Shown in pieces: positions 3,706 through 14,818 of a stretch of DNA of 16,489 bases (the first letter of the stretch is position 1; every line of letters begins with the position of its first letter). The notes below the pieces were generated by a model. The model was not told the DNA's origin, did no database searches, and saw only the letters and a program-made list of their open reading frames with translations. Position numbers and translations under genes: made by a program. Source of the DNA: DATKZS01 sp035527835 [NCBI: bacterium] (GTDB taxonomy: Bacteria > RBG-13-61-14); the NCBI GenBank assembly GCA_035527835.1, contig DATKZS010000047.1, positions 1 through 16,489 on the forward strand, in the 5' to 3' direction.

Positions 3706-5526
3706 ATGTCCGGAAAGATTCAACTGGCCTTGGCAGGGATGCTGGTCATGTGTCTCGGCAATCCCGAGCTTAAGCCTTTCGATCTTTCACCAAGGACTGA
3801 TTGGAAGCCTGAGGGTTGTCGCCCGGCCGTCACCACCAACCCGATCTTGGATGCACCCACCGGCTATTCCCGCACTTTTCACGCCGATACGCACAATGCG
3901 GATGAAGTCGCGGTGGCCGTACCGCCGGTTTTGGAATTGGCCTGGGTGGCCGAGGAGAAAATGTATGTCATCGAAGGCCCGACCTTTGATGAAAAAGGGA
4001 ATCTCTATTTCACTCCCAATGCGTCGGACGAGCCGGTGCTTCTGGTCTCGCTCGCGCCCGAAGATGGGTCCAGGCGGTGGGCGATCAAGGGCCGGAATAT
4101 AAATGGCGCCGGCGCGCCTCTGGTATTGAACGACCCTGAAAATCCCGGGGAGCAGATCGTATACGTCGGGACATACGAACGTGCATTGGCCGTCCATACC
4201 GACGGGACGATTTTATGGGACGTGCGGACCGGGCTTCCCGACCCCCTCCCGGAAGATAAAAGCATCGGAATTCATTGTTTCGGCTTGAACTATCATCCCC
4301 AGTTGGATGCGCTGATCGGGGTTCCTGGAGACGGCCATGTCTATCTGCTGGACCGGAAGACGGGCAAGCCTCTTCTTGCCAAGCCTTACCGGGTCCCCGG
4401 GGAGAAATCGCCGCCCGCCAAGATAGCGGGCATCCCGGTAAGAAACTCCCTGATTCAGACAATTCTTGGGGGCGGGATCAAGGTTGCCAATTATTTTGCG
4501 ATTGATGCGCACTCCGGTCGGATCTTCGTGGCGGCCACCGCTCCCGACGAAGAGGACGGAAAATTGGACGGGATCTCCGAAGATGGCGCCATCTACGCTT
4601 TAGAGGCCAAAGCGAACAACGGCAGTATCGGCATTGAGGAAAAGTATCATCTTTCTTTCGCCGGCGGCACCAGCTCGACTCCATCACTCAATGCCGATGG
4701 ATCGAGAATTTACATTGGAGACAGTTTCGGGAAGCTTCTCGCCATTGATACGGCGGCCGGCAAGCAGATCTGGTCGGTTGATATCGGCGAGCAGATCGTG
4801 GCGTCCATATCGGTGGCGGCGGACAATGGCGAGCTGTATGCGCCCACCCTCAAATACATCGTCAAAGTGATAGATAAGGGGGATCACGGCGAAATAGCCT
4901 GGCGCTCCGATCTGAACATGTACGAGACCAGGCCCGGGCAAAAAGGCGTAAACCTGATGGGCGGAACCATCGCTGCCAACGGGGTTGTCTTTCATGCCGG
5001 GGTCGGCGTTAATATTTTTCCCCTCAAGGTTGGAGTTGGCCTATTGGATCGGGAAACCGGCCATATTCGCTACTTCGCGGAAGGTCGCGAGGAATCCGCG
5101 GCCGCTCCCTGCGTGGGACCGGACGGCTCGGTTTATATTGGCCATCTTCCCGTTCGTCGCGCCATCGCGCATTTCCTTTTCCCCTTTTCCACCGCGCCGA
5201 TCACGGGAGGAATCGGCAAGTACCGGGCAAAAGCTCTCAAACCCTTGGCCAGAGACGCGCTTTGCGCCGCTCAAGCGAGGGCTCAAAACGCCGAGCGCAT
5301 CAGAGGGGAATGTCCAGCGTCTGTAGATGCGGACTTGAAGCAAATCCAGGTGTTGATCCGGCAGTCACGCAACGCGATCGAGCGGGCAAGCGAGCGCGGC
5401 GAGTTGACAATCGATGAAGCCCGGATGATTGAAGATGGTCTTTCGCCGGTTTCCATGGAGCTTCGCCCCGAAAGGCTTCAAGCTGACGCCGACTCTTTAG
5501 CCGCGATTTGCTCCGAACTGGATTAG
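3706..5526 (+). CDS. PQQ-type beta-propeller protein, probably exported (606 aa)
   Basis: Repeated blade motifs run through residues about 80-490. Examples are GNLYFTPNA followed by a DGSRRWAIKG turn, IVYVGTYERALAVHTDGTILWDV, GHVYLLDRKTGKPL, GAIYALEAKANNG, GKLLAIDTAAGKQIWSV, and GVGLLDRETGHIRYF followed by GSVYIGHL. These are the alternating Tyr-Ala-Leu-Asp and Gly-Lys-x-x-Trp patterns of PQQ/BamB-like propellers. No evidence for bound PQQ is visible. The N-terminus (residues 4-18) is hydrophobic and may be a weak signal peptide; Cys16 is preceded by LVM, a poor lipobox. The last 110 residues form a charged helical tail rich in Arg, Glu and Ala. GGAAGGAG lies upstream of the ATG. Base composition looks less GC-rich than its neighbours, and it follows a truncated gene stump, so it may be a later insertion. 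Binding or scaffold role only inferred. Confidence 0.75.
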   Translation: MSGKIQLALAGMLVMCLGNPELKPFDLSPRTDWKPEGCRPAVTTNPILDAPTGYSRTFHADTHNADEVAVAVPPVLELAWVAEEKMYVIEGPTFDEKGNLYFTPNASDEPVLLVSLAPEDGSRRWAIKGRNINGAGAPLVLNDPENPGEQIVYVGTYERALAVHTDGTILWDVRTGLPDPLPEDKSIGIHCFGLNYHPQLDALIGVPGDGHVYLLDRKTGKPLLAKPYRVPGEKSPPAKIAGIPVRNSLIQTILGGGIKVANYFAIDAHSGRIFVAATAPDEEDGKLDGISEDGAIYALEAKANNGSIGIEEKYHLSFAGGTSSTPSLNADGSRIYIGDSFGKLLAIDTAAGKQIWSVDIGEQIVASISVAADNGELYAPTLKYIVKVIDKGDHGEIAWRSDLNMYETRPGQKGVNLMGGTIAANGVVFHAGVGVNIFPLKVGVGLLDRETGHIRYFAEGREESAAAPCVGPDGSVYIGHLPVRRAIAHFLFPFSTAPITGGIGKYRAKALKPLARDALCAAQARAQNAERIRGECPASVDADLKQIQVLIRQSRNAIERASERGELTIDEARMIEDGLSPVSMELRPERLQADADSLAAICSELD

Positions 5527-5577
5527 AACTCGATATCGATTCCGGGAAATTAAACTGGGGTTTCCAGGAAGAATGTT

Positions 5578-6642
5578 ATGAAGCATGGTCTTATTGATCG
5601 TCGCGATTTTATCAGGTCATCAGGAACCGCCGCCGCAGGCATGGGGGCCGCACTGGTGAGCGGATGTGCCGCTCTGGATCGGCGCGGGTATGAATCTTCG
5701 TTCGGCGAGCTGTCGGGAAGATTCTCCGCCCAGCCCCTGCCGCCGCTGGGCCATGAAAACGGCGCCGGGATTGATGAGCGGTGGATCGCGGAGTTCATCG
5801 CGGAGTTCGTGAAAAATGATGCCGGCAACTCGATGGAGGACAAATTCCCGGGCGAGAAAATTTATCAGGACGCTCTGGTCGGTTTCTCGGCCGGGCCGGA
5901 CCCGCTCTTTCTTGAATACAAAAAAATCATCGGCCCTTTCCACCTCACCCCGGACGAGGCCATGGCCATGGCCGCCGGGACCCAGGGGTTAAAAGCGCCT
6001 CCGGCCGAGCAGATCGGAGTAGTTTCTTTCATCCTGCCCTTTGCCGATCCGATCGTGGCGAGCAACGCCTCGGAAAAGCGCTGGTGCTCGTCGCGCTGGG
6101 CGCAGGCCCGTCTACTGGGCGGCCTGTTCACCCGGAAAGTTCAGATGGCTCTCATTACCGAGTTGGCCCGCTACGGCATCCTGGCCGCGGCCCCGGACAT
6201 GATGCCCCAATTCAAGACCAGCAGGAACACGGCCGTGGGCTACGCCTCGAACTGGTCATTCCGCCACCTGGCCTTTGCCGCGGGCCTCGGCAGCTTCGGC
6301 ATGAGCGACCTCTTCATCTCGGAAAAAGGCACGGCCCACCGCTCGGGAGCCGTGGCCGTCGCCTTGCCGCTCAAGCCCAATCGCGACCGGGCCCCGCACT
6401 ATCGGCATCATTGCCTCCAACACCATTTTGGCGGATGCCTTATCTGCTCCCAGCGTTGCCCGGTGGGCGCCATCTCCGAAAAGGGACACGATAAAAACAA
6501 GTGCGGCCAGAACGTGGTTTCGAGCTGGCCCCGCAATCAGGCCAAATACCGGATCAATATTTACGGGTGCGGCCTGTGTTCCTCTGATACGCCCTGTTCC
6601 CAGGAGAGTCCGATACAATTTTTCATGGGAGGAAAAATATGA
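5578..6642 (+). CDS. Tat-exported lipoprotein, reductive-dehalogenase/QueG-like (354 aa)
   Basis: The N-terminus has a twin-arginine motif (R8-R9-D-F-I-R) and a lipobox ending at C30 (V-S-G-C). The mature protein should therefore be exported folded through Tat and lipid-anchored. A segment HLAFAAGLGSFGMSDLFIS corresponds to the Gly-rich loop of QueG and reductive dehalogenases. Cysteines C287, C290 and C294-Pro follow, then C309 and C331-x2-C334-x5-C340. The canonical first Cys of the ferredoxin motif is Phe284; C279 may replace it. At 354 residues it is shorter than typical catalytic RdhA proteins (about 450-500). No RdhB anchor gene is nearby, and the lipid anchor could stand in for it. Its stop overlaps the next start (ATGA), implying translational coupling with the SRPBCC gene. 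Reductase function is inferred. Confidence 0.78.
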   Translation: MKHGLIDRRDFIRSSGTAAAGMGAALVSGCAALDRRGYESSFGELSGRFSAQPLPPLGHENGAGIDERWIAEFIAEFVKNDAGNSMEDKFPGEKIYQDALVGFSAGPDPLFLEYKKIIGPFHLTPDEAMAMAAGTQGLKAPPAEQIGVVSFILPFADPIVASNASEKRWCSSRWAQARLLGGLFTRKVQMALITELARYGILAAAPDMMPQFKTSRNTAVGYASNWSFRHLAFAAGLGSFGMSDLFISEKGTAHRSGAVAVALPLKPNRDRAPHYRHHCLQHHFGGCLICSQRCPVGAISEKGHDKNKCGQNVVSSWPRNQAKYRINIYGCGLCSSDTPCSQESPIQFFMGGKI

Positions 6643-7148
6643 AACGCGCGCTGATTACTCTTGCCATCATTTTTGCTTCGATCTCGGCCCTGATGGCCGC
6701 TGATCAAATCAGCACTTCGCAGAGCGGGATGGTGATCGCCCCGCCGGCGGCAATCTGGGCGCTGCTCGCGGACGTCAACCACTGGGCCGACTGGTGCCCG
6801 GCGGTGGAGAAGGCCCAAATCGTCAAGGGAGATGGCCAGACCCCAAACAGCCAAGTAAAATTCCGGCCCGTGATCGGGGGCAAGAAGACGCCCACGGCCA
6901 TCAAGCTCGTCTTGAGCAAGTCAGAGCCCAATCGGTTGCTGGAGTACCGGGGCGGCCCGGCGGGAATGGACATCACCCTGGGCTGGAAGATCGAGGAGAA
7001 GGACGGAGGGAGCGAGTTCACCAGCTACGAGACCATCAGCGGTCCGGGGGTAAAACTCTTCCTTAAACTCTACGGCCAATCCGGACTGGACCAGGAGCAC
7101 CGCGCCTGGGTGGAAGCCGCCAGGAAAAAGCTTGAATCAGGCAAATAA
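6639..7148 (+). CDS. Secreted SRPBCC (START/Bet v 1-like) protein (169 aa)
   Basis: A Sec signal peptide is clear: MKRALITLAIIFASISALMA with probable cleavage near residue 20-21. The mature protein matches the polyketide cyclase/SRPBCC helix-grip fold. It begins SGMVIAPPAAIWALLADVNHWADWCP, the typical opening strand, helix and Trp-rich turn, and continues with strand-forming repeats and a long C-terminal helix (HRAWVEAARKKLES). Members bind hydrophobic ligands in a deep cavity; some are enzymes. Export is less usual for this fold. It overlaps the preceding Tat lipoprotein gene by 4 nt, with GGGAGGA just before its ATG. It may hold or deliver a hydrophobic substrate to the periplasmic enzymes (inference). 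Confidence 0.8.
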   Translation: MKRALITLAIIFASISALMAADQISTSQSGMVIAPPAAIWALLADVNHWADWCPAVEKAQIVKGDGQTPNSQVKFRPVIGGKKTPTAIKLVLSKSEPNRLLEYRGGPAGMDITLGWKIEEKDGGSEFTSYETISGPGVKLFLKLYGQSGLDQEHRAWVEAARKKLESGK

Positions 7149-7172
7149 TCAGGGACAGACCAGGAGAGAGAG

Positions 7173-8252
7173 ATGAAAAGAAACAAGGGTGGAAAGAAAG
7201 CTCAGGAAAGTTTGGCTCCGACATCTTTTGATCGGCGGTTGTGGCTCAAGGCCGCCGGCGCGGGAGGGGGCCTGCTGGTTGCCGGCGGGATGCTGGGCAA
7301 GCCGGGGAAGTCAAGGGCCGCGGGCTTGCCGGGCCTCAAGCCGGGAGCGGCTTTTCAGGACCGCAAGCTCGACCCGAACGCCGGGCTTTCCGTGGTCTTG
7401 CTCGGCACGGGCACTCCCATCCCCAATCCGGACCGGGCCTGCGCCGCGACCCTGGTCATCGCCGGCGACAAGACCTTCCTGGTTGACACCGGCCGGGGGT
7501 TCCTCACCCGCCTCGTCGGCGCCGGGCTCAACAATGTCTCCATGGTCTTATTCACCCACTTCCATTCGGACCACTTCGGCGAGTTCGGCGAACTTATGGT
7601 CAACCGCGGCATCGCCGGCGTTGCCCAGCCCATGCCCGTGATCGGCCCGGCCGGGGTCAAAGAGGTGATTGGCTCTTTGCTTTCCGCCTATGCGCTCGAC
7701 AACAAATACCGCAAGGCCCACCACGGCGATAAGTGGTCGGAGTCCGCCATGCGGGCGGAAATTGCGGAGAAGACCCCGGGCGTGGTGTCCGAGGCGGACG
7801 GCGTCAAGATCACCATGTTCGAGGTGGAGCATCCGCCCGTGGTCCCGGCGATGGGCTACCGCTTTGATTACAAGGGCCAGTCGGTGGTGGTTTCCGGCGA
7901 CACCAAAAAATGCGCGAAGATGGTGGAAATGGCCCAGGGCGCGGACGTTCTCGTGCACGAGGCCGCGAACAGGAAAATGACGGAGCTGGCCATCAAAAAT
8001 ATGAGAGCCAATGCCGGCCCCGCCAACCAGCGCATGGCCGCCATGGCCGAGGAGATGCTCACCTATCACACCATGACCGATGAAGTCGCCCAGATCGCCC
8101 GCGACGCCGGGGTGAAAAAGCTGGTCCTCACCCACCTCGCGCCGTCGCTCCCCGAAAACGCGGCCATGGAGCGAATATTCGTCCTGGGCATGAGCGGCAT
8201 TTACAAGGGCGACATCATCGTGGGCCGCGACGGCATGGAAATCAAGGTCTGA
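7173..8252 (+). CDS. Tat-exported MBL-fold hydrolase, RNase Z/AtsA-like (359 aa)
   Basis: A Tat signal is present: D-R-R-L-W-L-K followed by a Gly/Ala-rich hydrophobic stretch to about residue 50. The metallo-beta-lactamase motifs are complete: H129-x-H131-x-D133-H134, H220 in EVEHPPVVPAMGYR, D243 in VVVSGDT, and H321 in LVLTHLAP. H220 before GYR and the SGDT strand are the pattern of RNase Z-type MBL proteins. An exported RNase Z-like enzyme cannot act on tRNA; the same subfamily contains the secreted arylsulfatase AtsA of Pseudoalteromonas. With two sulfatases in the same block, a zinc arylsulfatase role is attractive, but lactone or ester hydrolysis is also possible. The start is set by AGGAGAG 4-5 nt upstream. 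Confidence 0.82.
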   Translation: MKRNKGGKKAQESLAPTSFDRRLWLKAAGAGGGLLVAGGMLGKPGKSRAAGLPGLKPGAAFQDRKLDPNAGLSVVLLGTGTPIPNPDRACAATLVIAGDKTFLVDTGRGFLTRLVGAGLNNVSMVLFTHFHSDHFGEFGELMVNRGIAGVAQPMPVIGPAGVKEVIGSLLSAYALDNKYRKAHHGDKWSESAMRAEIAEKTPGVVSEADGVKITMFEVEHPPVVPAMGYRFDYKGQSVVVSGDTKKCAKMVEMAQGADVLVHEAANRKMTELAIKNMRANAGPANQRMAAMAEEMLTYHTMTDEVAQIARDAGVKKLVLTHLAPSLPENAAMERIFVLGMSGIYKGDIIVGRDGMEIKV

Positions 8253-10679: not shown

Positions 10680-11714
10680 ATGTCGTTGAACAAATTGATC
10701 GAGGAGTTCCTGCTCGAGCGCGGCGCGCTCAAGGTCGGGTTTTCCACCACGGAGACGCTGGCGGGCGGCCCGCCCAGCATTGACCTCGCTTATAAGTTGG
10801 AGGGCGCGCGGTCGGCGGTGAGCTTTGCCCTGCCCATGAACCGCGACCACATCCGGGCGTTTTTCGCCAAGGAGGACCGGGGGCCGCACGAGATTGACAA
10901 CCTGTCCACCAACACGCGCTCCAAGGGAATCTCGTGGGAGCTGGCCGACTTTCTCAAGAAGGAGGGCCACGCGGCCAAGGGCCTGAACGCCAACATGAAG
11001 TACCGCATGGAGCTGCCGGGGTGGGAGCTCGAGATGCACCCGGACATCTCTCACCGCTATCTGGCGGCGCGCTCGGGGGTGGGCTCGTTCGGCTGGTCCG
11101 GAAACGTGGGGATCAAGGGCTTCGGCACCGCCATCATCCTGGGCGGTACGCTCACCACGGCCGAGCTGGAACCCACCGATCCGATCCCGGAAGACGAGAG
11201 CTTCTGCGACCAGTGCAAGCTCTGCGTCTCCGCCTGCGCCGGCGGGATGTTTGAAAAAGACAAGGAAACGTCCGTCACCATCGGCGGCCATACCTTCACC
11301 CACGCCGCGAGAAAGGACCTGGTCCTGTGCCACTTCGTGTGCGGCGGCTTCAGCGGGCTCGCCCGGTCCGGCAAGTGGTCCACCTGGTCGCCCGGACGCT
11401 TCCGCTTCCCCGAAAACAAAGAGGAGCTGGCGAAGGAGTTCTTCCGCTCCATGCCGCTCTACGCCCAGCGCCCGCCCATGCCCGGCGGATACCACCATCC
11501 GTCGCTGCCCGGCATGACCACCTACATGACCTGCGGCAACTGCCAGATCCTCTGCTTCGGCGATAAAAAGCAGACCGCCGCGAACTTGAAGCTCCTCCAT
11601 AAGTCCGGATGTGTGCTCCAGCGCCCCGACGGCTCCCTATACTCGCTCCCGGCGGAAGAGGCCGCAATAGTCTTCGAGGAAATGGAACCGGAACGGAAAA
11701 AACTTTACTGCTAA
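10680..11714 (+). CDS. QueG/reductive-dehalogenase-like Fe-S protein, second paralogue (344 aa)
   Basis: This is a paralogue of the first gene in the block. Shared landmarks are GPPS-x-D, LEGARSAVSFALPM (GARSIVSMAIPM in the other), an Ile/Leu-Asp followed by NTR, GWSGNV, and a Lys-Trp-x-T-W motif late in the protein. The GVGSFGWSGNVGIKGFGTA segment corresponds to the QueG corrinoid-side loop. Fe-S motifs are C176-x2-C179-x2-C182-x3-C186 (followed by Ala, not Pro), C217-x3-C221, and C285-x2-C288-x3-C292. It lacks the roughly 100-residue insertion that the first gene has before its last cysteine cluster. No signal peptide is present, so it is cytoplasmic. A G-run (GGGGGGG) precedes the ATG. Redox role inferred; substrate unknown. 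Confidence 0.8.
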   Translation: MSLNKLIEEFLLERGALKVGFSTTETLAGGPPSIDLAYKLEGARSAVSFALPMNRDHIRAFFAKEDRGPHEIDNLSTNTRSKGISWELADFLKKEGHAAKGLNANMKYRMELPGWELEMHPDISHRYLAARSGVGSFGWSGNVGIKGFGTAIILGGTLTTAELEPTDPIPEDESFCDQCKLCVSACAGGMFEKDKETSVTIGGHTFTHAARKDLVLCHFVCGGFSGLARSGKWSTWSPGRFRFPENKEELAKEFFRSMPLYAQRPPMPGGYHHPSLPGMTTYMTCGNCQILCFGDKKQTAANLKLLHKSGCVLQRPDGSLYSLPAEEAAIVFEEMEPERKKLYC

Positions 11715-11716
11715 GG

Positions 11717-11760
11717 GGGTTTGTGGTTTGTAGTTTGTGGTTTGTGGTTGAAGAAAAGAG
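11717..11760. repeat. Left arm of the TTTGTGG inverted repeat
   Basis: The arm reads GGG, then TTTGTGG, TTTGTAG, TTTGTGG, TTTGTGG, then TTGAAGAAAAGAG. It begins 3 nt after the stop codon of the Fe-S gene and ends 6 nt before the four-helix-bundle ATG, so it also forms that gene's leader. Confidence 0.85.
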
Positions 11761-11766
11761 ACAGGC

Positions 11767-12159
11767 ATGGCGACACTTAAGCGGTTCCAGGATATTGAAG
11801 CATGGCAAAAGGCGCGTGAGCTTACGCGCGCTGTTTACAAGTGCTCGGGTTCGGGCCGCTTCGCCAAGGACTTTGTCCTGAGGGATCAGATACGGCGGGC
11901 ATCCGTATCCATCATGTCGAACATTGCCGAGGGTTTTGGGCGTGGCGGCTCAAAGGAATTGATAAATTTTCTATCCATCGCCAAGGGTTCAGCCGCGGAA
12001 TTAGAGTCGCAGCTTTACATCGCCCTGGATCAGGGTTATATCTTGAAACCGGAATTTGAAGAATTGCAACGGATGGCAAAATCCGCCCAAAACCTGCTGG
12101 CCGGTTTTGTCAATTATTTGAAAAAGTGCGACCTCAGCGGACAAAAATACAAGAAGTAA
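11767..12159 (+). CDS. Four-helix-bundle protein, S23/23S rRNA IVP family (130 aa)
   Basis: The sequence matches the S23/IVP four-helix-bundle family end to end. It has F-Q-D-I-E-A-W-Q-K-A in helix 1, LRDQIRRASVSIMSNIAEGFGR in helix 2, F-L-S-I-A-K-G-S-A-A-E-L-E-S-Q-L in helix 3, and an amphipathic C-terminal helix. Members were first noticed as ORFs inside 23S rRNA intervening sequences. The related Avd protein helps diversity-generating retroelements, and most free-standing copies have no known function. Length is typical. The ribosome binding site is weak. The gene is closely bracketed by inverted TTTGTGG repeats and probably does not belong to the metabolic block. No reverse transcriptase or rRNA sequence is nearby. 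Confidence 0.9.
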   Translation: MATLKRFQDIEAWQKARELTRAVYKCSGSGRFAKDFVLRDQIRRASVSIMSNIAEGFGRGGSKELINFLSIAKGSAAELESQLYIALDQGYILKPEFEELQRMAKSAQNLLAGFVNYLKKCDLSGQKYKK

Positions 12160-12205
12160 ATTGGCGTGATTTGCCGCTGCCCAATGGAAAACGGAACCTC
12201 CGAAA

Positions 12206-14818
12206 ATGAAAAAAAACGCTTCCAACCAAGGCTCTTCTCTTAACCACAAACCACAAACCACAAACCACAAACCCATCTCCCGCAGACTGTTCATCAACCG
12301 CAGTATAGCCGCGACAAGCGGCGCGGTTCTGCTGGCGAACGCACGGTCATGGCCGGCGTGGGCCGAGGTCTCAACATTTGAAGGCGCCATCGGGAGGATG
12401 GGCCGCATAGCCCATGATCATGAAAATGGGCGGACCTGGGTGAGCTGGCTCCAGGTGGACGTAACTAATGAGGAGATCGGCACCGAGTTCGGGCCCGCCT
12501 GCGTAACCCGGGCGGTTGACAAGGTCATGGTGAAATCGCGGACCGCCGGCCGCTACACCAAGCCTATTGACGTGAGCGCGGGCCAGGCGGAGGCCAAGCT
12601 CGATCCCCGGATCGCCGCCCGGAGCGGACGGGCCTGCGCGGCCTGGTGCGCCTGTGACCTGGACACCAGGCAATGGCAAGTGTTCGCGGCCTGTCATGAC
12701 AAGGGCGAGTGGTCGGGACCCATGCCGGTCACCGGCGGCGGCCGGCCGGCCCTGCATCCGTCAGTGGCGCTCGACCCGGACACGGGCGCGGCCTGGATCG
12801 CGTTCGAGGACTGGAGCGACGGCGCCATCTATCTGACCACGTACAGCGGCTCCGCCTGGACCGAGCCGGTCAAGATCAGCGAGTCCGGCGCAAATTATCG
12901 CCCCCAGGTGATCGTGACCCGCAAAAAGGGCAAGAACGGCGGCGCGGTGGCCGTGGCCTGGGACTCTTACCGCGGCCACCAATATGACATTTACCTGCGC
13001 CTGCTCGCGCCCGGCGGCGCGCTGGGTCCGGAGCTGCGCGCGACCGGGAGCGGCCGGTGGGACAGTTGCGCGGACTTGGCGGAGGACCAAGACGGCGGGC
13101 TGTGGCTTGCGTGGGTGCGCGCGAGCAATGAGCTCACGGAGATGGACTCGCACCGGCAGGTCATGGCGCGCTGCTTTGACGGCGAAAAGTGGTTGTGGCC
13201 GCTGTCGGCGGCGGACCTGGAATCGGCCGTCCCCGGCCGGCTCACCCGGAACTCCTGCACCTGGCACCCCAAGGTCCTGGTGGATGACATGAACCGCGTG
13301 CACGTGTGCTACCGGGAGGGCACGGACACCCTGGTCGGAAAGCTCAAGATGCGGACCTATACCGGCGATAGCTGGTCCCGGCCGCGCCGGATGAAGCTGG
13401 GGCCCCCCCGGAGCGTGGTGCACATGATCCGGGACTTCTCCGCGGCGCTCACGGGCCCGGACCGGATCGAGGGCGTGTGGGACAGCGTTTTCACCCGGCG
13501 GCTCGGGTTCGCGAGCCAGGTGGGGACGATCAGGGCGACGCCGCTGCCGGCGGGCGGCGCGCGGCAAAAGCTCACGGGCACGGAGGCGGAGGACCGGCGG
13601 GACGAGGGGTGGCCGCGGCGGGAGAAGTCCGGGCCGCGGGTCATGGAGGACAAGGGCCGGAGCATGATGCTGCTCTTCGGCGACACGCACACCCATTCCT
13701 GGTCGAGCGACGGCGCCGACCCCCCTGACTGGTACTTCCACTTCGCCCGCGACTACGCGCGCCTGGACTTTTACGCGCTCTCCGACCACGACTTCACCAT
13801 CTGCAACACGCCGGGTCTCGAGGCCTACATCGCCTTTTTGCCCCAGGCCTTCAACAGGCCGGAGTTCATCTGCTTCCAGGCCTACGAGTTCACCTCGCAG
13901 AGCCAGGGCCACCGCGTGGTCGTGTTCGAGGGAAACGACAAGAAGACCTTTGCCATGTCCCGGCCGCCTAAGCAGAAGAGCGAGACCACCGGATACCTCT
14001 ACCACTTCCTGAAGAAGTTCGACCTGGCCCCGGAATCGCGCGTCCTGGTCACGGCCCACAACATGTACCAGATCGGCAACGAGTTCGCGGAGTACGACGA
14101 GTCCCTGGAGCCCCTTTACGACGCGGCCAGCCTGCACGTGCTCGCGGAAAAGCCGTTTGGCGAATACGAGCCGCCGGGCGGGCGCGAGCGCAGCATTACC
14201 GACCAGGCCGCCTACGTCACCGTGCGTCTCATCAATCAGGCGCGGCCCCGGCACGGGCTGAAGAGCGTATGGTGCATGTGCTGGCGCGAGGCCCTGGACA
14301 CCGGAGCGCCGCTCGGCGCTTATGGCGCCTCCGACACCCACACCGCCAACGGCATCGGCTACGTGGTTACCGGACTGTGGGCCGGGCAAAAAAGCCGGGC
14401 CGCCATTTTCGACGCCATGTTCGCGCGCCGCTCTACGGCAATGGACAGCGGGCTGCGACTGATCGAGACCTGGAACACTTCGCCCCCGCCCATGGAGCGG
14501 CCGCGCCGCCTGCCCATGCTCCGGGCGGACGTGCGCTTTTACCTGGACGATCATTTCATGGGGTCGAAGCCGCGGATCAGCGATGCCCCGCTCGCCCGGG
14601 CCATGGTGTATAATGAGGACGCGGCGGACCCGGTGCGGGCGCTGGTGTTGGTAAAGGACGGCCAAGAGGCGCATACGGAGTTCACGGATGGCGCGAATCC
14701 GGCGCGGGGGGAATGGAAGGACCCGGAGTTTGCGCCGGGCAAACATTATTACTACGTCCGGGCCGAGTTCAAGAGCGGGAACATTGCGTATTCATCGCCG
14801 GTGTTCGCCAATTATTGA
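12206..14818 (+). CDS. Tat-exported propeller-PHP protein, DUF3604-like (870 aa)
   Basis: A Tat motif (S-R26-R27-L-F-I-N-R) and a hydrophobic stretch lead to a cleavage site near PAWA|EV. Residues about 55-440 show repeated Trp/Asp blade motifs such as PSVALDPDTGAAWIAFEDW and DLAEDQDGGLWLAWVRA, like sialidase-type propellers. A PHP metallo-hydrolase domain follows: G-D493-T-H495-T-H497-S, S-D527-H528-D529, A-H618-N and S-D710-T-H712-T. This matches DUF3604-type proteins, including the YYYVR ending and SSPVFANY. PHP domains bind two or three metals and hydrolyse phosphoesters or related bonds; the substrate is unknown here. Residues 10-23 before the Tat motif are encoded by the right repeat arm, so the present start is probably a secondary one. 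The Shine-Dalgarno site is poor. It is followed after 23 nt by a sulfatase gene. Confidence 0.82.
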   Translation: MKKNASNQGSSLNHKPQTTNHKPISRRLFINRSIAATSGAVLLANARSWPAWAEVSTFEGAIGRMGRIAHDHENGRTWVSWLQVDVTNEEIGTEFGPACVTRAVDKVMVKSRTAGRYTKPIDVSAGQAEAKLDPRIAARSGRACAAWCACDLDTRQWQVFAACHDKGEWSGPMPVTGGGRPALHPSVALDPDTGAAWIAFEDWSDGAIYLTTYSGSAWTEPVKISESGANYRPQVIVTRKKGKNGGAVAVAWDSYRGHQYDIYLRLLAPGGALGPELRATGSGRWDSCADLAEDQDGGLWLAWVRASNELTEMDSHRQVMARCFDGEKWLWPLSAADLESAVPGRLTRNSCTWHPKVLVDDMNRVHVCYREGTDTLVGKLKMRTYTGDSWSRPRRMKLGPPRSVVHMIRDFSAALTGPDRIEGVWDSVFTRRLGFASQVGTIRATPLPAGGARQKLTGTEAEDRRDEGWPRREKSGPRVMEDKGRSMMLLFGDTHTHSWSSDGADPPDWYFHFARDYARLDFYALSDHDFTICNTPGLEAYIAFLPQAFNRPEFICFQAYEFTSQSQGHRVVVFEGNDKKTFAMSRPPKQKSETTGYLYHFLKKFDLAPESRVLVTAHNMYQIGNEFAEYDESLEPLYDAASLHVLAEKPFGEYEPPGGRERSITDQAAYVTVRLINQARPRHGLKSVWCMCWREALDTGAPLGAYGASDTHTANGIGYVVTGLWAGQKSRAAIFDAMFARRSTAMDSGLRLIETWNTSPPPMERPRRLPMLRADVRFYLDDHFMGSKPRISDAPLARAMVYNEDAADPVRALVLVKDGQEAHTEFTDGANPARGEWKDPEFAPGKHYYYVRAEFKSGNIAYSSPVFANY
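12232..12274. repeat. Right arm of the TTTGTGG inverted repeat, inside a coding region
   Basis: The arm reads CTCTTCTCTTAA and then repeated CCACAAA units to CCC. It is the reverse complement of 11717-11760 with few changes. Translated in the frame of the PHP gene it gives a His-Lys-Pro/Asn-rich peptide directly before the twin-arginine motif. Confidence 0.85.

Follow-up and report, generated by a model that had tools for sequence, protein, structure and literature searches.

What is a single small gene for a four-helix-bundle protein doing between two inverted arrays of a seven-base word? The question is raised by a stretch of 16,489 nt, here called the window, from contig DATKZS010000047.1 of the bacterium DATKZS01 sp035527835, where the gene at 11767-12159 encodes a protein of the S23/IVP family, a family for which we know of no role. 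Our analysis suggests that positions 11717-12274 are probably a one-gene mobile S23/IVP cassette, whose ends are the inverted heptad arrays and whose IVP protein acts on its own arms. The parts of the cassette are as follows.

11717-11760, plus strand: 5' arm, 4.6 GGTTTGT units, of the RGTYNNN type on the sense strand, with a purine-rich inner tail (arm alignment)
11767-12159, plus strand: S23/IVP four-helix-bundle gene, 130 aa (PF05635, TIGR02436)
12232-12274, plus strand: 3' arm, an inverted copy of the 5' arm, AACCACA units (arm alignment)
11717-12274, plus strand: whole cassette, 558 bp, G+C content 0.486 between host genes at 0.634 and 0.669

An earlier note on this DNA had described inverted arms of TTTGTGG units around a single gene, and arm alignment and profile matches confirm that description. 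The core arms (11717-11749, GGTTTGT x4.6, and 12242-12274, AACCACA x4.6) are 33 nt long and 97% complementary, and reach 44 and 43 nt when the purine-rich tails and one 1-nt gap are included; their alignment score of 34 compares with a maximum of 13 among 300 dinucleotide shuffles of both flanks. In an RNA fold the two arms pair (z = -6.0), and none of 100 shuffles was equally stable. The open reading frame (ORF) between them belongs to the S23/IVP family, matching PF05635 with 120.2 bits (cut-off 33.8) and TIGR02436, four helix bundle protein, with 114.8 bits (cut-off 24), and it is, as the note had it, lower in GC than its surroundings (0.499 against 0.634 for the upstream and 0.669 for the downstream gene). 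The locus thus has what defines a heptad-armed S23 cassette, inverted tandem heptads with RGTYNNN on the sense strand of the 5' arm. With only an IVP gene and no transposase inside, and no consistent target-site duplication at the plasmid sites of its relatives, it is not filed as a classical insertion sequence or miniature inverted-repeat transposable element, though a transposase encoded elsewhere might help it. No reverse transcriptase was found among the window proteins that were profile-scanned (8 in one scan and 7 in another, not every gene).

Is a gene armed in this way peculiar to the window? It is not: the heptad-armed S23 gene recurs across much of the family, as became clear from the comparison of flanks of many S23-family genes that the note had proposed. 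One genome per species was scanned, and the best 80 of at least 516 relative-encoding stretches (at least 591 stretches matched) were taken as the locus set; adding the window and leaving out one duplicate (L050, identical to L049) and one locus that was too short (L072) gave 79 loci for counting. Inverted arms, defined by an alignment score of at least 14, flank the IVP gene at 54 of the 79 loci, across many phyla, but only 4 of 170 other ORFs of the same loci (Fisher p 3e-30, with kinship ignored and some loci sharing flanks). None of those four control ORFs is a detected IVP, and one control ORF that scored 12 is an IVP. By eye, degenerate-heptad inverted arms can be seen at most of the 80 loci, and a period of 7 was found in 52 of the 80 IVP flanks but in only 61 of 1634 control windows; a period of 8 occurred in 6 of the 80 flanks, one of 14 in 43, and each of the remaining eight periods tested in 0 or 1. 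The arm unit is mostly 7 nt (RGTYNNN), with 8- or 9-nt units at a few IVP loci, and 52 of the 54 armed loci have RGTY on the sense strand in the 5' arm, while the other 2 have it reversed. The median cassette length over these 54 is 515 bp. The heptad itself varies among loci (GTCCAAA, GTTCAAG, GTTTCAG, GTTGCGA, AGTCGAA and others), while the two arms within one locus match. At two Kiritimatiellae loci (L061, L066) we saw long composite arms with CTGGTTTGAGTCGCGGC-type units and inner inverted repeats, and at L066 similar composite arms surround other ORFs too.

Does such a unit move? Two Nostoc plasmids, L189 and L181, have reciprocal empty sites. L189 carries an arms-plus-IVP unit of about 419 bp between a stop codon and the next ATG, where L181 has 3 bp, and L181 carries another unit (GGGRAAA heptads, about 500 bp) at a point where L189 has an overlapping TAATG. 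The first of these sites is filled in L189, L193 and L194, empty in L181, L200, L201, L203 and L204, and occupied by a different insert in L202; at the second, L181 has its insert and the seven other plasmids shown have none. The L189 unit has matches in 15 plasmid records, seven of which cover at least 80% of it, and the element recurs elsewhere, in Aulosira and at one site shared by Trichormus and Scytonema, where the match goes no further than the arms and the flanks differ. This third site is filled in 2 and empty, with a clean junction, in 3 of the plasmids read; six plasmids of 97.6-98.1% identity are, by coverage, without the unit at the Trichormus site. A fourth site, between nrdB and nrdA and antisense to both, is filled in one plasmid and empty in one relative of 85% identity. 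Gene-deleted derivatives also occur: L197 and L199 keep both arms and little or no gene, L198 has a left arm and a short right-arm-like piece, and L276 is a truncated copy. In Nitrospira (79 genomes searched, 74 with a match), two genes that we take to be ispF and cysE lie 19-23 bp apart in 23 of the 30 best loci; six of the 30 have an IVP between the two, and in the remaining one the gap measures 120 bp without an IVP. These filled and empty states are gains or losses, in either direction, and in these relatives of the window locus arms plus gene are one unit that comes and goes at orthologous sites. The note's proposal of a small repeat-bounded S23 element without a transposase therefore stands for the family, by the Nostocales plasmids and by the link between arms and gene across phyla, while mobility of the window locus itself is probable by extension from its relatives.

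One might instead suppose that there is no element at all, the heptad arrays growing by slippage and serving as recombination hot spots into which IVP genes are swapped by chance. Gene-less arrays are indeed frequent, and genome G173 (L210-L214) has long pure direct heptad arrays (GGTCGGC and others) with no detected IVP and no inverted partner, which perhaps arose by a different process. However, the empty sites that were read contain no heptad array, so that an origin by slippage alone is disfavoured; moreover, the arms match within a locus, differ between loci and keep one polarity, and heptads track the presence of IVP. We regard this explanation as very improbable.

If the unit is mobile, what is the protein in it for? 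Between copies at different sites the ratio of nonsynonymous to synonymous substitution (dN/dS) is 0.10-0.15, which indicates purifying selection; it is 0.86 between the two copies at the Trichormus/Scytonema site, where there are very few changes. Across 157 IVPs, and in the residue numbering of the window protein, S48, E55 and E78 are conserved in 100%, Q41 and N52 in 99%, S75 in 97% and R44 in 90%, and this set of polar residues could form a binding or active site. The crystal structures of relatives, 2GSC (XCC0516) and 2RLD, have five chains each, and on that ground the protein is perhaps a pentamer. The arms also follow the protein, arm similarity rising with protein identity (Mantel r 0.35, 0 of 999 permutations, with 35 homologous-flank pairs dropped and same-genome pairs kept). 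A PADLOC search gave no match for the two IVPs tried. The note had left it between cargo and working protein; because of the selection, the fixed polarity and the covariation of unit and protein we tend to favour the working protein.

Many arrays carry no gene, and these too bear on the tie between word and protein. We surveyed forty regions of 11-20 kb from seven genomes, in which not every IVP of those genomes is included; neighbouring gene-less arrays that resemble each other are inverted in 20 cases and direct in 5. The fraction of gene-less arrays with a cosine of at least 0.5 to the IVP arms of their own genome is 0.25 in G007 (n=4), 0.00 in G011 (n=6), 0.33 in G013 (n=49), 0.19 in G028 (n=27), 0.44 in G029 (n=34), 0.57 in G034 (n=30) and 0.50 in G036 (n=4), while arms of a foreign genome reach this cosine for a fraction of at most 0.17; the own genome fits best in 6 of the 7. 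Gene-less arrays also accompany the gene between genomes, in counts that take overlapping sites of one array separately and are uncorrected for kinship: among 90 genomes from the order of G034, at least 5 RGTY-heptad sites were found in 9 of the 18 that have an IVP over the cut-off but in only 4 of the other 72; among 70 from the phylum of G036 the figures are 24 of 34 against 5 of 36. In the latter phylum, where the two weakest IVP matches (G519, G523) were counted as below the cut-off, the contrast is 23 of 34 against 2 of 36 for at least 10 sites and 21 of 34 against 0 of 36 for at least 20. The expansion is extreme in G515 and G527, with 4156 and 2452 matches to the RGTY heptad pattern (overlaps counted apart) and 8 and 9 IVP matches. 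The note had held that arms found widely without a link to S23 genes would speak against its proposal, and this is the case in part only: gene-less arms are common, but they are far more frequent in genomes with IVP, and in 6 of 7 genomes their units fit the genome's own IVP arms best.

The genes around the window cassette, and around some of its relatives, show where such units lodge. The window's two host genes are these.

10680-11714, plus strand: upstream host gene, Fe-S protein, QueG/reductive-dehalogenase-like (matches far below cut-offs)
12206-14818, plus strand: downstream ORF of the host, CehA/McbA-like metallohydrolase by a match under the NCBIfam cut-off, with DUF3604 above that of Pfam

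The 5' arm starts 2 bases past the stop codon of the upstream gene, and the downstream ORF as listed begins within the cassette, with the 3' arm translated as NHKPQTTNHKP near its N terminus. At L001, L003, L010, L053 and their relatives (several groups) the IVP gene lies directly 5' of one and the same large gene, presumably DUF1156-like, and there the 3' arm is translated as the N-terminal start of this neighbour. For one locus group rRNA had been considered as the conserved flank, and this was rejected: seven rRNA motifs had no match in the 80 loci, and the flanks are protein ORFs. Elsewhere IVP genes are annotated between cas6 and cas4 (L185), between cas10 and a cmr3-like gene (L192), between nrdB and an nrdA-like gene (L190) and, at a locus with one array only (L220), between what we take to be guaB- and guaA-like genes.

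Several points weigh against the reading of the window as a mobile cassette worked by its own protein, besides the overlapping sites and the kinship in the counts above. In the two phyla searched, no relative was found in which the Fe-S and CehA genes flank an empty site: a relative of the upstream gene at 60% occurs in 1 of 68 genomes (phylum of G006), on a contig that stops 82 bases beyond that gene, and 41 more genomes gave weak partial matches; the downstream gene has weak matches only, in 23 of 194 genomes (phylum of G017); the upstream gene has no match among plasmids, viral contigs gave 12 pattern matches of which none is a relative, and phages gave none. The arms are not universal, since 25 of the 79 IVP loci fall under the threshold, and among 157 distinct IVPs from the same genomes and from plasmids only 82 have arms at a score of at least 13 (67 with sense polarity, 5 reverse, 10 neither), so that the wider set has such arms in only about half of its members. 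Three of the six Nitrospira insertions are without clear heptads. There is no consistent target-site duplication, GTAAT standing on either side of the insert at the Trichormus site and none being clear at the first Nostoc site. The gene-less arrays of G011 do not fit the arms of its own IVP; G182 has true inverted pairs and no detected IVP; the 4 of 72 and 5 of 36 genomes mentioned above have at least 5 sites without an IVP over the cut-off; and the mirror image of the pattern, counted as a control, is likewise enriched (10 of 18 against 8 of 72 in the order of G034), which, taken with the RGTY enrichment, means that heptad arrays beyond the RGTY class go with IVP. Finally, IVP has no catalytic motif known to us by which it could cut or join strands, and it may be a passenger or a regulator.

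This last point leads to the alternative that arms and gene are mobile together but another enzyme moves them, the IVP being a passenger or regulating its own expression or tolerance, and the arrays either binding a global regulator or forming stems for RNA processing. The pairing of the window arms in RNA would suit such stems, and paired hepta- and octanucleotide arrays of Geobacter metallireducens are called binding sites of a global regulator, itself unidentified, in the available part of PMC2700814. On the other hand, the Nostocales cassettes that were read hold no other gene, purifying selection acts between copies at different sites, and the fixed polarity and the covariation of unit with protein tie the protein to its arms. 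We consider a passenger or regulator unlikely, if the most serious competitor to a working protein.

How might an IVP act on its own arms? In the reading that we prefer, the protein would bind the heptads of its own arms, either in a folded single strand or in RNA, and would cause or permit the unit that the arms enclose to be copied or inserted, while the strand chemistry itself would fall to host enzymes. Gene-less arm pairs could be moved in trans, by analogy with REPINs, which are thought to be moved by RAYTs. In transcripts the arms would close a stem that may shield the host mRNA or rRNA, and in 23S rRNA such stems would be removed by RNase III. It is also conceivable that movement occurs at the level of RNA: the transcript would fold through its arms and be cut out, as happens to 23S intervening sequences through RNase III, after which a borrowed reverse transcriptase would copy it back, the IVP playing the part of Avd, the related four-helix bundle of diversity-generating retroelements. 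One IVP (L189) does match the bAvd family PF22296 (E 7.8e-8, below the family cut-off) and L183 and L181 match it weakly; some family members lie within 23S rRNA; and the IVP gene is co-directional at 11 of the 13 annotated plasmid loci with same-strand neighbours, several of which are one site. The window protein, however, is not a bAvd, having an IVP match only, even at E up to 10, and three bAvd loci outside IVP differ in having no inverted heptad arms (a small control, n=3). The insertion antisense to nrdB and nrdA, with its empty relative, and an antisense placement in Calothrix also speak against the RNA route. The antisense insertion and the clean DNA junctions make us lean to movement at the DNA level; some weight stays on the RNA route because of the copies in rRNA and the weak kinship with Avd, but we judge it to be quite unlikely.

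The copies in rRNA deserve closer attention. In L271 a large-subunit rRNA match (LSU_rRNA, 3997-7295) spans an IVP gene at 5761-6084, with arms ATTCAGG/AATCAGA/GTTCAGG that resemble the Nostoc unit AGTCAGR; its genome, G158, has two identical copies (L271, L272) in identical stretches. In L188, an Azospirillum plasmid, the IVP also lies within LSU rRNA, with heptads AGAGGAC/GGATGAC. Because these two 23S-lodged loci have heptad arms, classical 23S intervening sequences look like members of the heptad-armed S23 family. The intervening sequence of Coxiella, as far as the available part of PMC4990558 describes it, has three tandem GACAGAT heptamers (two in some strains) before its S23 ORF and a 28-bp terminal stem processed by RNase III, and so shares with the window the S23 protein, the single ORF, the stem of terminal inverted repeats and the heptads beside the ORF. 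The window's S23 ORF does lie in such a stem, but between two protein ORFs and not inside a 23S rRNA gene; as it is outside rRNA, we file it in the same cassette family and not as a 23S intervening sequence. Nearly all loci that were read are, unlike 23S intervening sequences, between protein genes, and intergenic presence and absence and gene-less derivatives do not appear in the part of PMC4990558 at hand. A further likeness is to REPIN-RAYT systems, where, in the portion of PMC3116915 available, a single gene is flanked by repeats, the repeat is tied to the gene and gene-less inverted doublets are dispersed; but RAYT is a Y1 transposase and its repetitive extragenic palindromic (REP) sequence a palindrome, whereas IVP is an unrelated four-helix bundle with tandem heptads, and the window gene, a PF05635 member, is not a Y1 transposase flanked by repeats.

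A one-gene plan of this kind may not be restricted to S23. PF13366 genes (PDDEXK_3 nucleases) were found in 23 of 28 genomes, and inverted arms with a score of at least 14 flank 21 of 30 PF13366 loci (L241-L270), a count for the loci alone, in which one locus was too short and another, L257, was scored on the wrong strand although it has an inverted pair. The arm units are 8, 9 or 10 nt long, the commonest being, for example, CACAGAG, CGCAGATGAA and CACGAAGA. On the strength of these arms, two unrelated one-gene families may share the cassette plan. The window itself has three gene-less inverted arrays with 9- or 10-nt units, at 8852-8880/8960-8989 (AACGCAGATG), 10559-10583/10612-10637 (ACAGGATTA) and 16311-16337/16358-16384 (CGCAGATGAA), like those seen around PF13366 nuclease genes elsewhere, and we suspect that they go with such genes.

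Dispersed heptamers are known from other genomes as well, the short tandemly repeated repetitive sequences of cyanobacteria being one example. Others, each in the available part of its source, are GGGAATC of Xanthomonas and GGGGA(C/T)T of Nostoc (PMC4692102), TAACTGA of Beggiatoaceae and others (PMC4679880) and the heptamer arrays of Geobacter (PMC2700814). Like the cassette arms they have period 7 and are mostly intergenic, and they often form inverted pairs in Xanthomonas (70 in Xcc) and Geobacter; RGTYNNN covers the Nostoc word and TAACTGA, but GGGAATC does not quite fit it. They differ in having, within the portions of PMC4692102, PMC4679880 and PMC2700814 at hand, no established protein partner (S1, Csp and Csr are candidates in PMC4679880), and the terms 'S23' and 'four helix' are absent from these three papers. 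In the literature covered, which took in only the top ranks of large result sets and few subscription papers or preprints, we found no link between S23/IVP and heptad arrays as a mobile unit.

More generally, we tentatively propose, as an idea that we find nearly as plausible as its opposite, a new class of mobile DNA: one-gene cassettes with inverted arrays of short words (7 nt for S23, 8-10 nt for PF13366), in which a protein that is not a transposase would recognise the array, and not one single end sequence, and would spread both itself and gene-less hairpins. Such a class would count among its special cases and debris the 23S intervening sequences as well as the heptamers scattered through cyanobacteria, Xanthomonas, Beggiatoaceae and Geobacter. 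The link between S23/IVP and heptamers gives both a testable function, and sequence allows each protein to be matched with its cognate repeat. If IVP does move DNA, it would do so without any known transposase, integrase or reverse transcriptase fold, and the 23S intervening sequence would be just one address of a general element.

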